From contig NZ_CP101154.1 in assembly GCF_024298905.1 (NCBI RefSeq), positions 806,001-870,000 on the forward strand: DNA of 64,000 bases, written 5' to 3'. The stretch comes from Natronomonas marina (GTDB lineage Archaea; Halobacteriota; Halobacteria; Halobacteriales; Haloarculaceae). Made by a program: the position numbers and the translations under genes. Below are positions 47,560 through 53,535 of the stretch, piece by piece. How positions within the stretch are numbered: position 1 is the stretch's first letter; each line of letters starts with the position of its first letter. The notes beneath the pieces are model-generated. The model was not told where the DNA came from and made no database searches. It was given only the letters and a program-made list of their open reading frames with translations.

Positions 47560-48585
47560 ATGCGCCAGTACCACGACCTCGTCTCGGACGTCCTCGCGGG
47601 CGGGACGTACAAGCCGAACCGGACCGGCGTCGACACCGTGGCCTCGTTCTCGCATCACTACGAGGTTGACCTCGGGGAGGGCTTCCCGCTTTTGACGACG
47701 AAGAAGATGGACGGCTACCGGTGGAACTCGCTCATCCACGAACTGCTGTGGTACCTCTCCGGGGAGGCCCACATCCGCAATCTGCGGGAGGAGACGAAGA
47801 TATGGGACGCCTGGGCCGACGACGACGGCGCTCTCGATACGGCCTACGGCCGCTTCTGGCGGCGGTTCCCGGTACCGGACGACACCGGCCGTCTGCCGGG
47901 CGAGTCCTGGCCCGACGACGCCCACCGCTGGACGGAGACCGAGACCGCACCCGACGGCACCGAGCGGCAGGTGTTCGACCAGATACGGTACGTCCTCGAC
48001 ACGCTGGCGGAGAACCCCGCCTCCCGCCGGATGGTGGTGAACGCCTGGCACCCGGCCAACGCCGCCGTCTCGACGCTGCCGCCGTGTCACTACACCTTCG
48101 TCTTCAACGTCCAGGGCGACCGCCTGAACGTCCACCTCACCCAGCGCTCCGGCGACATCGCGCTGGGCGTCCCGTTCAACCTCGCGGCGTACTCGCTTCT
48201 GGCCCACGCCGTCGCAAACCGGACCGACTTCGAGGTGGGCTCGTTCGGCCACACCATCGTCGACGCCCACGTCTACTGCGGCGAGGGCGAGCGCGGGGAG
48301 TTCTACGCCGAGCGCCTCCCGGAACTGCAGGAGCGGCTGGCGGCCGTGGCGGACCGCGAGGAGTACGCCGACGTCCGCGAGTGGCTCGAGGAGGCCGCGC
48401 CGCCGGAACCCGACGGCGAGGGCTACGACCACGTCCCCGGCCTGCTGACGCAGTTGAGCCGGGAGCCCCGCGAGCGGCCCCGCATCGAGGTGGCCGACCG
48501 GCCGCTCGACGACCTGGCGTACGACGACGTCGAACTCCACGACTACGACCCCGCGCCGGGGCTGGAGTTCTCGGTCGCCGAATGA
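47560..48585 (+). CDS. thyA: Thymidylate synthase
   Basis: A 341-residue folate-dependent thymidylate synthase. The catalytic Cys lies in STLPPCHYTFVF near residue 174, HLTQRSGDIALGVPFNLAAY binds dUMP, and GFPLLTTKKM, WYLSGEAHIR and VDAHVY are typical. It is longer than the bacterial norm of about 264 residues because of acidic inserts near residues 80-130 and 250-310, as in other haloarchaeal enzymes. The ATG is at 47560; the frame upstream to 47383 is antisense to the small membrane gene. A box ctctaaat lies about 33 bases upstream. It overlaps folA by four bases, a coupling also seen in the hts-hdrB locus of Haloferax. Confidence 0.95.
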   Translation: MRQYHDLVSDVLAGGTYKPNRTGVDTVASFSHHYEVDLGEGFPLLTTKKMDGYRWNSLIHELLWYLSGEAHIRNLREETKIWDAWADDDGALDTAYGRFWRRFPVPDDTGRLPGESWPDDAHRWTETETAPDGTERQVFDQIRYVLDTLAENPASRRMVVNAWHPANAAVSTLPPCHYTFVFNVQGDRLNVHLTQRSGDIALGVPFNLAAYSLLAHAVANRTDFEVGSFGHTIVDAHVYCGEGERGEFYAERLPELQERLAAVADREEYADVREWLEEAAPPEPDGEGYDHVPGLLTQLSREPRERPRIEVADRPLDDLAYDDVELHDYDPAPGLEFSVAE

Positions 48586-49073
48586 AGGTCGTCCTCGTCG
48601 CCGCCGTCGCCGAGAACGGCGTCATCGGGTCGGACGGCGGGATGCCGTGGCACTACCCCGAGGACCTCCGGCAGTTCAAGGAGACGACGATGGGCCACCC
48701 CGTCGTGATGGGCCGGCGGACGTACGAGTCCATCGCCTCGCGGCTGGGCGGCCCGCTTCCCGGCCGGACGAACGTCGTTCTCTCGCGGCAGGACTCGCTG
48801 GATCTGCCCGAGGGCGCCGTCCACGCCCGGAGCATCGACGAGGCGCTTTCGGCGGCCGAGGCGGCGCTGGACGACGACCGGGAGGCGGTCTACGTCGTCG
48901 GTGGCGCCACCGTCTACGAGGAGTTTCTCGACCGGGCCGACGAACTCCGCATCACGGAGATCCCCGAGTCGCCCGACGGCGACACCCGCTTTCCCGACAT
49001 CGGTGAGGAGTGGGCGGCGACCGACCGCGAGCGGGCGGGCGAGTTGACCGTCGTGACCTACCGTCGGCGGTAG
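48582..49073 (+). CDS. folA: Dihydrofolate reductase
   Basis: A 163-residue DHFR that regenerates tetrahydrofolate with NADPH. It starts VVLVAAVAENGVIGSDGGMPW, has the active-site helix EDLRQFKETTMGHPVVMGRRTYESI, and ends with the glycine loop VYVVGGATVYEEFL. Its ATG overlaps the thyA stop (ATGA), so the two enzymes of the dTMP cycle are made together. Confidence 0.95.
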   Translation: MKVVLVAAVAENGVIGSDGGMPWHYPEDLRQFKETTMGHPVVMGRRTYESIASRLGGPLPGRTNVVLSRQDSLDLPEGAVHARSIDEALSAAEAALDDDREAVYVVGGATVYEEFLDRADELRITEIPESPDGDTRFPDIGEEWAATDRERAGELTVVTYRRR

Positions 49074-49100
49074 CCGCCGTCGGCACGTCGGCAGGAGGGG

Positions 49101-49110
49101 GGTTTTAGCC
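49101..49110 (+). promoter_or_regulatory. TATA-like box of the FAD/Fe-S dehydrogenase gene
   Basis: The sequence ggttttagcc is centred about 27 bases before the ATG at 49132, a leaderless arrangement. Confidence 0.5.
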
Positions 49111-49131
49111 GGGGCGACCCGAAGTACAGGT

Positions 49132-52100
49132 ATGGCAACGGAGGGTGCCGACGACGCTGGGGGCCGGCCGACCGACCCCGCCGACGACGAGCGGGCCGAG
49201 TACGACTACGCCGGCGGCGGCGTCGACCGACCGGCGCTCGTCGCCGATCTCGAGCGGGTGGTCGACGGCGAGGTCCGGTTCGACGAGTACACGCGGACGC
49301 TGTACGCGACCGACGCGTCGGCCTACGAAGTGACGCCCGTCGGCGTAGTCTTTCCGACCGACACCGACGACGTGACCGCGACCGTCGAGTACTGCCACGA
49401 ACGGTCCGTCCCGGTGCTGCCGCGCGGCGGCGGCACGTCGCTGGCCGGCCAGACCGTCAACGAGGCCGTCGTGCTCGACTTCACGCGGCACATGGACGAC
49501 ATCGTCGGCGTCGACCCCGACGCCCGGACGGCGACGGCGGGGCCGGGCGTGTTGCTCGGCGACCTGAACGCCGAACTCGCCGCCGAGGGGCTGAAGTTCG
49601 CGCCCGACCCCGCCTGGGGCGACAAGAGCGCGCTCGGCGGCGCCATCGGGAACAACTCGACGGGAAGCCACTCTTTGGTCTACGGCAAGACCGACGCCTA
49701 CATCGAGGAACTGGAGGTCGTCCTCGCGGACGGCAGTGTCCACCGGTTCGGCGAACTCACCGTCGAGGAGTGGCGCCGCCGGGCCGACGGGGGCGGCCTC
49801 GTCGGCCGGATATACGCCGCCCTGCTCGCAGTCGTCGAGGAGTCCGCTGACGCGATTCGGGACGCCTACCCGGAACTGAAGCGGAACGTCTCCGGCTACA
49901 ACCTCGACCGTCTCGTCGAGGAGTACGAGGCCGTGCAGGCGGGCGACCGCGAGACGGTCAACCTCGCTCGGGTCTTGGCGGGCAGCGAGGGGACCCTCGG
50001 CGTCGTCACCGAGGCGACGGTCGGGCTCGAACCCGTCCCGGAGACGAAGGCGATGGCACTTCTGGCCTACGAGGACCTCGTCACCGCGCTGTCGGACGTG
50101 GCGACGATACTGTCATTCGACCCCGCGGCCGTCGAGGTGCTCGACGACGTGCTGCTCGATCTGGCCCGCGAGACCTCAGAGTTCGGCGACCTCGTCGACG
50201 AGACCGTGCCCGAAGATGCCGGTAGCGTCCTGCTCGTGGAGTTCTACGCCGACGACGACGCCGAGGGGCGCCGACTGGTCGCGGAGTTGCTGGCCGACCG
50301 CCAGCCCGAGGTGACGACTGCGGCCGATCCGGACGATCCCCATCGAACCGACGCACCGGTGCGGGCCGTCTACGCCGCGGAGGCCCACGAGCAGGCCGAA
50401 CGGGACCGCTTCTGGAAACTCCGGAAGTCCGGGCTGCCGATACTGCTCGGGCGGACCACCGACGCCAAACACATCAGCTTCATCGAGGACACCGCCGTCC
50501 CGCCCGAGCACCTCCCCGAGTACGTCGAGGCCTTTCAGGAACTGCTGGCGGACAACGACACCTTCGCCAGCTTCTACGCCCACGCCGGCCCGGGCTGTCT
50601 CCACATCCGCCCGCTCGTGAACACGAAGTCCGTCGAGGGCATCGAGACGATGGAGGCCATCGCGGAGGGTGCGACCGACCTCGTTTTCGAGTACGAGGGC
50701 AGCGTCTCCGGCGAGCACGGCGACGGCCGCGCACGCACGCAGTGGAACCGGAAGCTGTACGGCGAGGCGGTGTTCGAGCTGTTCCGCGAAATCAAGACGG
50801 CGTTCGACCCAGAGTGGCTCCTCAACCCCGGACAGGTCTGTGGCGACGTCTCCCCGACGGAGAACCTCCGGTTCGACCCCGACTACGAGTTCGACGCCGG
50901 CTTCGAGCCCACGCTCGAGTGGGACAACGAGAACGGCTTCCAGGGGATGGTCGAGCTGTGTCACGGCTGTGGCGGCTGTCGCGGGCCCCAGGAGACGACC
51001 GGCGGCGTGATGTGTCCGACCTACCGGGCGGCAAACGAGGAGGTCCTGAGCACGCGCGGCCGGGCGAACGCCCTCCGGGCGGCGATGTCCGGCGACCTCG
51101 ACGTCGAGGCGACCGACGAGGAGTTCCTGACGGAGGTGCTGGACCTCTGTATCGGCTGCAAGGGCTGTTCGACCGACTGCCCCAGCGAGGTCGACCTCGC
51201 GAAACTGAAGGCCGAACTCCAGCACGAACACCACGACCGCCGCGGGACGACGCTGCGCGAGCGGCTGTTCGCCAACGTCGAGTGGACCGCCAGTGTCGGG
51301 AGCACGCTTGCACCGGTGTCGAACTGGCTCCCGTCGCTGCCCGGCGCCCGCGGACTCCTGGAGCGGACCGTCGGCATCGCCCGCGAGCGAGAACTGCCGA
51401 CCTTCCGCCGGGAGTCGTTCGTCGAGTGGTTCGACGCCCGCGGGCCGGCGGTCTCCGAGGCGGCGGCCGACGAGCGGGTCCTGCTCTTGCCCGACACGTT
51501 CACGAACTACACCGACCCGGCGGTGCCGAAGGCGGCTGTCAGGGTCTTGGAGGCGGCCGGCGTCCACGTCCGGGTCCCCGATGTCGGCCCGAGCGGCCGG
51601 GCGGCCTTCTCGAAGGGCTTTCTCGACGTGGCCGAAGAGCGCGCCCGTGAGGTGGTGACCGAACTCGCTCCCCGCGTCGAGGAGGGGTGGGAGGTCGTCG
51701 TCTGTGAGCCGTCCGACGCCGTGATGGTGCAGTCGGACTACGCCGACCTGCTCGGGGACAACACCTCGGCGGAGTTGCTCGCAAAGCACACCTTCGGCGT
51801 CTGTGAGTACCTCGACGTCCGCGGACTCGACGAACGGCTCGCCTTCGAGGCGGCCGAGGAGCCGCTGGTCTATCACGGCCACTGCCACCAGAAGGCGATA
51901 AAGCGGGACCACCACGCCGTCGGCGTCCTGCGGCGGGCCGGCTACGACGTCGAGCCGCTGGACTCGACCTGCTGTGGGATGGCGGGGTCGTTCGGTTACG
52001 AGGCCGAACACTACTCGATGAGCCGTGCCATCGGCCGGTTGCTCTTCGAGCAGGTCGACGACGCCGGCGGCGCTCCCGTCGCGCCCGGTGCCTCCTGCCG

Positions 52101-52179
52101 GACGCAGCTCGGCGACCGCGAGGACGGGACGGCGCCCGACCACCCGATCCAGCGGCTCGCGGCCGCTCTCGCGGAGTGA
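49132..52179 (+). CDS. FAD-binding and Fe-S-binding dehydrogenase (GlcD-GlpC fusion type)
   Basis: A 1015-residue fusion that oxidises a 2-hydroxy acid, such as D-lactate, glycolate or 2-hydroxyglutarate, and passes electrons to the respiratory chain. The N-terminal FAD-PCMH domain (about residues 40-280) has PVLPRGGGTSLAGQTV and GGAIGNNSTGSHSLVYGKT. The FAD-linked oxidase C-terminal domain runs to about residue 560, with GEHGDGRARTQW. A two-cluster ferredoxin domain follows (CHGCGGCR and CIGCKGCSTDCPS, residues about 610-690). The end is a cysteine-rich (CCG) domain with YHGHCHQKAI and STCCGMAGSFG near residue 945. The exact substrate is not shown by the sequence. Confidence 0.9.
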   Translation: MATEGADDAGGRPTDPADDERAEYDYAGGGVDRPALVADLERVVDGEVRFDEYTRTLYATDASAYEVTPVGVVFPTDTDDVTATVEYCHERSVPVLPRGGGTSLAGQTVNEAVVLDFTRHMDDIVGVDPDARTATAGPGVLLGDLNAELAAEGLKFAPDPAWGDKSALGGAIGNNSTGSHSLVYGKTDAYIEELEVVLADGSVHRFGELTVEEWRRRADGGGLVGRIYAALLAVVEESADAIRDAYPELKRNVSGYNLDRLVEEYEAVQAGDRETVNLARVLAGSEGTLGVVTEATVGLEPVPETKAMALLAYEDLVTALSDVATILSFDPAAVEVLDDVLLDLARETSEFGDLVDETVPEDAGSVLLVEFYADDDAEGRRLVAELLADRQPEVTTAADPDDPHRTDAPVRAVYAAEAHEQAERDRFWKLRKSGLPILLGRTTDAKHISFIEDTAVPPEHLPEYVEAFQELLADNDTFASFYAHAGPGCLHIRPLVNTKSVEGIETMEAIAEGATDLVFEYEGSVSGEHGDGRARTQWNRKLYGEAVFELFREIKTAFDPEWLLNPGQVCGDVSPTENLRFDPDYEFDAGFEPTLEWDNENGFQGMVELCHGCGGCRGPQETTGGVMCPTYRAANEEVLSTRGRANALRAAMSGDLDVEATDEEFLTEVLDLCIGCKGCSTDCPSEVDLAKLKAELQHEHHDRRGTTLRERLFANVEWTASVGSTLAPVSNWLPSLPGARGLLERTVGIARERELPTFRRESFVEWFDARGPAVSEAAADERVLLLPDTFTNYTDPAVPKAAVRVLEAAGVHVRVPDVGPSGRAAFSKGFLDVAEERAREVVTELAPRVEEGWEVVVCEPSDAVMVQSDYADLLGDNTSAELLAKHTFGVCEYLDVRGLDERLAFEAAEEPLVYHGHCHQKAIKRDHHAVGVLRRAGYDVEPLDSTCCGMAGSFGYEAEHYSMSRAIGRLLFEQVDDAGGAPVAPGASCRTQLGDREDGTAPDHPIQRLAAALAE

Positions 52180-52232
52180 TCGGCCGACCGCCCGAGAGCG
52201 GTCGATCCGTCCCGACCGATACCCGAGCCACA

Positions 52233-52248
52233 GGGATTTTATAATCCC
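52233..52248 (+). promoter_or_regulatory. TATA box inside a perfect 16-bp palindrome
   Basis: The arms gggatt and aatccc flank the core ttat, so the promoter core of the membrane-bound winged-helix regulator is a perfect inverted repeat. It is centred about 29 bases before the ATG at 52270. A dimeric regulator bound here would block the promoter; autoregulation by the encoded winged helix is plausible but not shown. Confidence 0.5.
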
Positions 52249-52269
52249 GCGGTAGTGGGTCCGGTATCG

Positions 52270-53535
52270 ATGGTACGGTCGCTCGAAGGGCGACGGCTGT
52301 CCCTTCTCCTCGCCGGCGTCCTGCTGTGTTCGGTGGCAGCGCCCGCCGTCACCGTGAGCGGGACCGCGCCGGGAGCCGGGCCCGACGCGGAGGGTCCCGC
52401 CTCGGGGACCGCACCCGGTTCGGTGTCCACGGCGTCGGTCGGCGCGCCGACGCTGCTGCAGGGGTTCGAGGCCGACCGGACCTCCTTTCGGGTCACCGTC
52501 TACGAGAACGGCTCGGCGGAGTGGCTGTTCCGCTACGAGAAGAGCCTCAACGACTCCGAGCGGGCGGACTTCGAGGCGTTCGCCGAGGAGTTCGACCGCA
52601 ACGAGACGGAACTGTTCGTCAACTTCCGAGAGCGTGCGCGGTGGCTGGCGGACAACGGCTCGACGGCGACCGGCCGGGAGATGAGCGCCGAGAGCTTCCG
52701 GCGGGACGCCGGCGTCGAGGGACTGGACCCCCAGACGCAGGCGCTCGGCGTCGTCGAGATGTCGTTCCGGTGGCAGGGCTTCGCACGGGTGGCCGACGAC
52801 GGCCGGGTCGTGGCCGGCGACGTCTTCGAGGGCGGCCTCTACATCGGCTCGGATCAGGAACTGGTCTTCGTCGCCGGCCCGAACCTGACCTTCGACGAGG
52901 CCCGTCCCGACGACGGCGACCGGGTCGTCTCCGCGGGGACGCTCGCCGACAGCGAGTCCGTCACCTGGACCGGCGAGAAGTCCTTCACCGACCAGCGGCC
53001 GCGGGTCGTCCTGACGGACGCCGGGGATGCCACCGGCGAGACGGGAACGGCCCCGTCGTCGACGGCGACGCCGACGCCGACCGGAACCGGTTCGGGCTGG
53101 CTCCTGCCGGCGGGCGTGCTGGTGGTGGTTCTCGTCCTCGGGACCGGCGCGGCTGTCGCCTACCGGAACGGCGTCTTCGCGCCGACCGACGGCGACGGTG
53201 GCGCGGCAGTCACGGAGGCGAGCGGTGACGACGACGGCGGTACCGCTGCTACCGGCGCGGATGCCGACGCGGAGTCGCCGGCCGCCGTCACCGAGGCGGA
53301 ACTGCTCTCCGACGAGGAACGCGTCGTCAACCTGCTCGAGGACAACGGCGGCCGGATGAAGCAGGTCGACATCGTCGAGGAGACCGACTGGTCGAAGTCG
53401 AAGGTGTCGATGCTGCTGTCGGACATGGAGGACGAAGAGCACATCTCGAAGCTCCGGGTCGGCCGCGAGAACATCGTCTCGCTGACCGGGCACGAACCGG
53501 ACGCGGCCGGCTCCCCGTTCGACGACGAGGAGTGA
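52270..53535 (+). CDS. Membrane-bound protein with C-terminal winged-helix DNA-binding domain
   Basis: A 421-residue protein. It has a signal peptide (LSLLLAGVLLCSVAAPAV), an extracytoplasmic domain of about 220 residues (FRVTVYENGSAEWLFRYEKS, LFVNFRERARWL, ALGVVEMSFRWQGFA), a Thr/Pro-rich linker and one membrane helix (LLPAGVLVVVLVLGTGAAVA, around residue 285). After a cytoplasmic Asp/Ala-rich linker comes a winged helix of about 70 residues (RVVNLLEDNGGRMKQVDIVE, then TDWSKSKVSMLLSDMEDE). This COG2512-like architecture puts a sensor outside and a DNA-binding domain inside in one polypeptide. The ATG at 52270 suits the palindromic TATA box. Targets and signal are unknown. Confidence 0.82.
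   Translation: MVRSLEGRRLSLLLAGVLLCSVAAPAVTVSGTAPGAGPDAEGPASGTAPGSVSTASVGAPTLLQGFEADRTSFRVTVYENGSAEWLFRYEKSLNDSERADFEAFAEEFDRNETELFVNFRERARWLADNGSTATGREMSAESFRRDAGVEGLDPQTQALGVVEMSFRWQGFARVADDGRVVAGDVFEGGLYIGSDQELVFVAGPNLTFDEARPDDGDRVVSAGTLADSESVTWTGEKSFTDQRPRVVLTDAGDATGETGTAPSSTATPTPTGTGSGWLLPAGVLVVVLVLGTGAAVAYRNGVFAPTDGDGGAAVTEASGDDDGGTAATGADADAESPAAVTEAELLSDEERVVNLLEDNGGRMKQVDIVEETDWSKSKVSMLLSDMEDEEHISKLRVGRENIVSLTGHEPDAAGSPFDDEE

Follow-up and report, generated by a model that had tools for sequence, protein, structure and literature searches.

A gene for a predicted membrane-bound DNA-binding protein of the haloarchaeon Natronomonas marina begins just downstream of a nearly symmetric sequence that covers its TATA box, and the locus raises the question of whether this symmetry is an operator, through which the regulator would control its own gene, or a coincidence within the core promoter. 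Here we address the question in the window, that is, the whole stretch of 64,000 nucleotides that was analysed, and in the orthologous loci of other haloarchaea. The comparison makes it quite probable that the gene, which encodes a single-pass, membrane-tethered DUF7345-DUF7343 winged-helix regulator, is preceded by an ordinary core promoter of the haloarchaeal type in which a near-palindrome has arisen by chance.

The regulator and its genomic context

The coding sequence and its predicted parts are as follows.

52270-53535, plus strand: coding sequence of the DUF7345-TM-DUF7343 regulator, 421 amino acids, start at ATG 52270
52285-52335, plus strand: N-terminal hydrophobic helix, residues 6-22, either a signal peptide or a second membrane segment
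52489-52875, plus strand: DUF7345, residues 74-202, putative extracytoplasmic sensor (E 1.8e-23)
53104-53166, plus strand: predicted transmembrane helix, residues 279-299
53302-53484, plus strand: DUF7343 winged helix, residues 345-405, predicted to be cytoplasmic (E 1.1e-30)

The anatomy described in an earlier note on this DNA, with a domain outside, one membrane helix and a winged helix inside, agrees with the prediction, to which the N-terminal hydrophobic helix has to be added. All five N-glycosylation sequons, starting at residues 80-205, lie before the membrane helix and therefore agree with the same outside-inside order. An acidic linker lies between the membrane helix and DUF7343, in which the predicted recognition helix spans residues 376-388. 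Both domains exceed their curated Pfam cut-offs (105.7 against 27.6 bits for DUF7343, PF24034; 83.6 against 27.5 for DUF7345, PF24036); NCBIfam returned two matches, both under cut-off, and a search of PDB sequences with the family profile gave no match at E 0.1. In the account that we infer to be most likely as regards cell topology, sensing, DNA binding and all targets of the regulator, the DUF7345 domain outside the cell would respond to a signal, this would alter the dimer state by way of the membrane helix, and the cytoplasmic winged helix would then bind target promoters from the membrane.

The structure model (mean pLDDT 74.5, pTM 0.50) is confident in the two folded domains, with 10-residue means mostly exceeding 85, but lacks confidence in the linkers. 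Residues 344-408 take a winged-helix fold, with a best structural match at Z 10.2 and rmsd 2.0 over 66 residues; among the matches listed, this part aligns with SelB, MarR, ArsR and Z-alpha domains at Z 9-10, over about 60 residues and mostly at rmsd 1-3. The whole-model Foldseek matches, with TM-scores of at most 0.20 among those listed and five FMO proteins at E up to 0.001, are taken as meaningless. The winged helices of MarR and ArsR, several of which are among the structural matches listed, have their fold in common with residues 344-408, and the Pfam scores fall below cut-off for both MarR_2 (20.9 bits against 27) and HTH_5 (13.9 against 22). On sequence grounds, DUF7343 is a fold related to MarR and ArsR and not an accepted member of those Pfam families.

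Averaged over 17 proteins, the fraction of residues shared with the window's protein is 0.81 in the winged helix, 0.92 in the recognition helix and 0.57 in the sensor. Because the winged helix and its recognition helix are conserved above the sensor, the DNA target of the regulator is probably conserved, and the sensed signal may vary among relatives. The C-terminal tail that follows the winged helix, GHEPDAAGSPFDDE (residues 407-421, window 53488-53532), is as conserved as the DNA-binding domain, with a mean of 0.82 of the window's residues kept in the same 17 proteins.

Relatives were found at E 0.001 in 59 of the 60 genomes searched, own genome included; at the stricter E 1e-60, a sample of 242 genomes of the class gave relatives in 119. 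When set against other haloarchaeal proteins with DUF7345 and DUF7343, the window's member shares both domains, and nothing was found that distinguishes it. A literature search found no mention of DUF7343 or DUF7345, and wider searches, judged by titles and abstract openings, found no study of the family. With a predicted winged helix (residues 345-405) and a hydrophobic helix (residues 279-299) in one protein, the regulator fits by prediction the class of transmembrane transcription regulators (TTRs), defined by a DNA-binding domain that shares its polypeptide with one or more membrane helices (Demey et al. 2023, PMC10269533); among TTRs a single pass is the commonest topology (PMC10269533). 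The terms "halobact" and "haloarch" do not occur in the main text of that article, and hence the DUF7345-DUF7343 family is not discussed there under those names. Among archaea, ArnR and ArnR1 of Sulfolobus acidocaldarius are membrane-bound one-component regulators with a helix-turn-helix and promoter binding (PMC6396743; PMC13286277), and the window's regulator would, by analogy, work like them. The helix-turn-helix of ArnR lies in the N-terminal region (PMC13286277), whereas that of the window's protein is C-terminal, a comparison made by description, and the targets of ArnR are archaellum and pilus promoters.

The genes thyA, DHFR, an FAD-oxidase with iron-sulphur domains and the regulator follow one another in this order on one strand (window 47560-53535). 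Among 20 ortholog loci, 15 of them from the same genus, thyA and the DHFR gene precede the regulator on its strand in at least 14, the FAD-oxidase gene does so in at least 10, and DUF7541 and COX1 follow it in at least 3, all of these counts being lower bounds because some loci are short contigs. A link to cytochrome oxidase was considered and rejected, since DUF7541 and COX1 follow the regulator in 3 of the 20 loci.

A near-palindrome over the TATA box

Four features were delineated upstream of the start codon.

52229-52236, plus strand: BRE-like upstream element CACAGGGA, in which A 52232 and G 52233 are the best conserved positions outside the TATA box
52237-52244, plus strand: TATA box TTTTATAA, its first T 33 nt upstream of ATG 52270
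52233-52248, no strand: 6-bp inverted repeat GGGATT/AATCCC with the 4-nt spacer TTAT, most likely a core-promoter coincidence
52217-52269, no strand: larger imperfect inverted repeat with arms 52217-52231 and 52255-52269, 13 of 15 pairs and 23 nt between the arms

The 16-mer at 52233-52248, GGGATTTTATAATCCC, had been presented as a perfect palindrome over the TATA box. Its sequence, its position and its overlap with a TATA box spaced correctly for a start at ATG 52270 are as described; its perfection is not: the central TTAT is ATAA on the opposite strand, and the 16-mer and its reverse complement therefore disagree at 2 of the 16 positions. Counting the 16-mer, inverted arms of 6 bp set 4 nt apart occur 62 times in the window, which also has two TATA-box sites with arms of at least 6 when both strands are counted. 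Recombining the left and right flanks of 30 distinct TTTTATA sites, taken from a sample of the own genome and from the ortholog loci, produced arms of at least 6 in 91 of 5000 cases (1.8%). In the sample of the own genome (464 kb, 68% G+C), 43 TTTATA sites were counted, and the 16-mer is the only one with arms of this length. Since repeats are frequent in the window and chance provides them at 1.8% of TATA sites, the symmetry amounts to a mild coincidence, hardly beyond chance in a sequence that was picked by a reader seeking striking things.

The larger repeat flanks the TATA box, its right arm ending just before the ATG, and its score was reached by none of 300 local shuffles. Repeats of equal strength with gaps of 11-35 number 27 in the window, overlaps counted, as against 6-17 in five mononucleotide shuffles. 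A test in its register was possible for 16 promoters in a set of 71, namely the window's and those of 15 further orthologs, and these 15 form between 1 and 7 of the 15 pairs. On the strength of this lost pairing and of the 27 such repeats in the window, the larger repeat was rejected as an operator.

The suggestion that the palindrome might recur elsewhere in the genome was not borne out, for there is no second copy at up to one mismatch. The nearest relative in the own genome, GCGATTTTATAAACCC, has two mismatches and precedes another gene, which we take to resemble LonB, and the pattern CACAGNNNTTTTAT matches twice, at the regulator promoter and at one other place. Of 40 genomes, two contain the 16-mer at up to one mismatch, namely the own genome and G048, which belongs to another haloarchaeal family. 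The copy in G048 is exact (locus L075, G048:C1:2515440-2515455) and lies upstream of a gene that presumably encodes a KH and beta-CASP-like sequence. The palindrome was rejected as a regulon motif for lack of a second copy at up to one mismatch in its own genome.

Conservation of the promoter and loss of the symmetry

The earlier note had let its proposal depend on conservation of the palindrome upstream of orthologs, and here the proposal failed: with all 30 ortholog loci covered, the full inverted repeat is present in one, the window itself. The register of the arms was compared at 28 of these loci (L008 and L021 were omitted for unclear starts), and 24 could be aligned, window included, four being devoid of the T-run pattern. 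The left arm GGGATT is found in 9 of the 24 and the right arm AATCCC in one; six of six arm pairs form in the window alone, and 0-4 in the other 23. In the closest relatives (68-70% protein identity) the right arm is altered and the left arm shows no compensation. Locus L004, with a protein 70% identical, keeps GGGATT intact on the left and has AATTTG on the right; the right-arm position reads GATCCG in L006 and L007 and AAGCCG in L010, L012 and L013, and a matching change of the left arm is found in none of these six loci. Parts of a right arm lie nearby in L005 (GGATT-5-AATCC) and in L006 and L007 (GGAT-6-ATCC), and since these loci retain them, a degenerate operator may exist in this small clade.

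Pairing was also scanned along different axes in 64 promoters, those outside f7, another family, in which the promoters of the regulator gene are closely similar, being thinned to 33 by a hand-made list. At the axis of the 16-mer, mean pairing is 0.33 in these 33, window included, and 0.23 in the 20 promoters of f7, values near the 0.28 that our own arithmetic gives as the expectation from 68% G+C. The palindrome was rejected as an operator on the ortholog comparison, the axis scan and the chance rate taken together.

All 28 orthologs examined have a T-run 30-35 nt upstream of the start, with the proviso that it was sought 20-50 nt upstream of hand-chosen starts, so that the spacing is partly a result of that choice; weak boxes are among them in L019, L025 and L028 (e.g. 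TTTTCC in L025). Because of this spacing, we regard the promoter as constrained and its symmetry as not, and take ATG 52270 as the start in preference to GTG 52255, where the ORF list opens the frame. Promoters from across the class were obtained for 88 of 92 loci (four were without a start). The counts were confined to 67 of these, which scored 7 or more for the TATA box and to which one family contributed about 20; in them an A at -5 (94%) and a G at -4 (72%) precede TTTTA. The 21 low-scoring promoters were dropped, several of them (L005, L006, L010, L021, L025 and others) having a misassigned strand or start. Of the 20 genomes from the same genus, the own genome and four others contain the sequence AGGGATTTTATAA, once each and by coordinates always before the regulator gene; overall, 6 of 40 genomes have it, the sixth match being the G048 copy. 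Compared by eye within the genus, the left half of the 16-mer has changed less than the thyA promoter.

With a TATA box about 30 nt before the start and a BRE upstream of it, the region has the layout of a haloarchaeal core promoter of the leaderless type, and the 35 other TATA-plus-ORF sites listed from the own genome are laid out similarly. The TATA part fits the haloarchaeal consensus TTWT, whereas the BRE is CACAGGGA and not the CGAAA quoted in PMC4983044. Leaderless transcripts make up 72% of the coding transcripts of Haloferax volcanii (PMC4983044), and the spacing observed here suits them; the regulator gene is probably transcribed without a leader, from ATG 52270. Judging from these alignments, the left half, GGGATTTTATAA, is most likely under selection as promoter sequence, and the right half, AATCCC, most likely mirrors it by chance in one species.

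Promoter elements private to the regulator gene

In family f7 (e.g. L182-L201), about 40 nt before the regulator gene are nearly invariant. The consensus is ATTCACAAGCATTTTTAGCTCCGGCACGTAGTGGTAGACGA-ATG, with little variation, and this despite the fact that f7 proteins average just 51% identity to the G057 protein (19 matches). TCACAA is found in 18 and GTAGTG in 13 of the 20 f7 regulator promoters (L185 and L188 entered with a wrong start, L193 incomplete), as compared with 2 of 21, one promoter counted twice, and 0 of 21 for other TATA-plus-ORF sites in f7 loci. The signature TTTTAGCNNNGGCACGTAGTG occurs at up to one mismatch in 7 of 8 f7 genomes, only at the regulator gene, and the eighth genome has it there with three mismatches. 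Two more matches elsewhere, at three mismatches, are within what the reversed-pattern control yields (20 matches in the same 8 genomes). Because the signature is confined to the regulator gene, the f7 promoter is gene-private and not a regulon motif.

The CACAA and TAGTG that flank the TATA box in f7 have a separate axis of symmetry, at which their pairing is 0.62, the maximum of the scan, but this value comes from what is almost a single sequence. Among the 33 promoters outside f7, 17 have a loose C(A/G)(C/T)A(A/G) at -8 to -4, and the two sides pair at 0.18-0.33 on every axis scanned. Inverted CACAG/CTGTG half-sites were seen beside the TATA box with 15 nt between them in L031 and 19 in L008; the axis scan did not find them to be general among other orthologs. 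Upstream identity is 0.65 for the regulator gene and 0.92, 0.83, 0.82, 0.56, 0.54, 0.46 and 0.39 for seven other ORFs of the f7 loci, a comparison in which some stretches are upstream coding sequence and row numbers differ; we take the ORFs with 0.92 and 0.56 to be L7Ae-like and superoxide dismutase-like, respectively. Proteasome alpha and several other f7 neighbours were unfit as controls, their upstream stretch resembling (mostly, for proteasome alpha) the upstream gene and containing no TATA box. Equally unfit was a separate, crude set of TATA-plus-ORF sites, in which true promoters are mixed with spurious ones and the 20 rows for regulators contain duplicates and paralogs. Since other ORFs of f7 genomes also have conserved upstream blocks, conservation by itself shows no operator.

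Discussion

In the reading put forward originally, the regulator would have the 16-mer as its operator; it would then repress its own gene by covering the TATA box. MarR- and ArsR-type winged-helix proteins often bind inverted repeats, and a 16-mer that is nearly symmetric over a TATA box, singled out among 43 sites by its arms and with partial right arms persisting in three loci, is the kind of sequence that such a protein might recognize. Yet the full repeat belongs to one ortholog in 30, the genome holds no second copy at up to one mismatch, and the right arm has been lost, with no compensatory change on the left in close relatives, while the recognition helix has remained 92% identical to the window's across 17 proteins. 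We therefore hold this reading to be very improbable. The claim of a self-contained one-protein signalling unit with its own operator is thus to be divided: prediction supports the anatomy, which is that of a membrane-bound one-component type, and the operator is not supported. It is more improbable still that the larger imperfect repeat is the real operator in this species; local shuffles speak in its favour, as does its placement around the TATA box with 13 of 15 pairs, but neither the orthologs nor the abundance of such repeats in the window agree with it.

Autoregulation might instead operate through other elements beside the TATA box, namely CACA(A/G) over the BRE and, in f7, GTAGTG 15-20 nt below the T-run, where the regulator would compete with TFB and TBP. 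The near-universal A at -5, the concentration of the two f7 elements at the regulator gene, their pairing on a separate axis and the privacy of the f7 signature are all consistent with such a scheme, as is the strong conservation of the DNA-binding domain, which is expected if its target is conserved too. Nonetheless, the BRE-side element occupies the place where TFB is expected to bind, its loose form reaches just half of the promoters outside f7, where no axis pairs well, and several other f7 ORFs likewise have conserved upstream blocks. We consider autoregulation through these elements unlikely, if clearly less so than either palindromic operator. Much the same doubt attaches to the fuller proposal, to which we assign a marginally lower probability, that the membrane-fixed regulator feeds back on its own gene by means of a promoter element that is deeply conserved and private to that gene (CACA(A/G) on the BRE and, in f7, GTAGTG as well) in competition with TFB and TBP, the near-palindrome being a local variant. 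An ordinary core promoter with a chance near-palindrome is the reading that we prefer.

After the ortholog comparison, the palindrome carries little weight. The one modest lead that remains is that this fast-changing sensor gene has a conserved promoter. Membrane-bound one-protein regulators have been little studied in archaea, and the DUF7345-DUF7343 family is widespread among haloarchaea. If the conserved promoter elements were indeed the regulator's own binding site, the promoter would provide a ready reporter for finding the signal to which this family responds.
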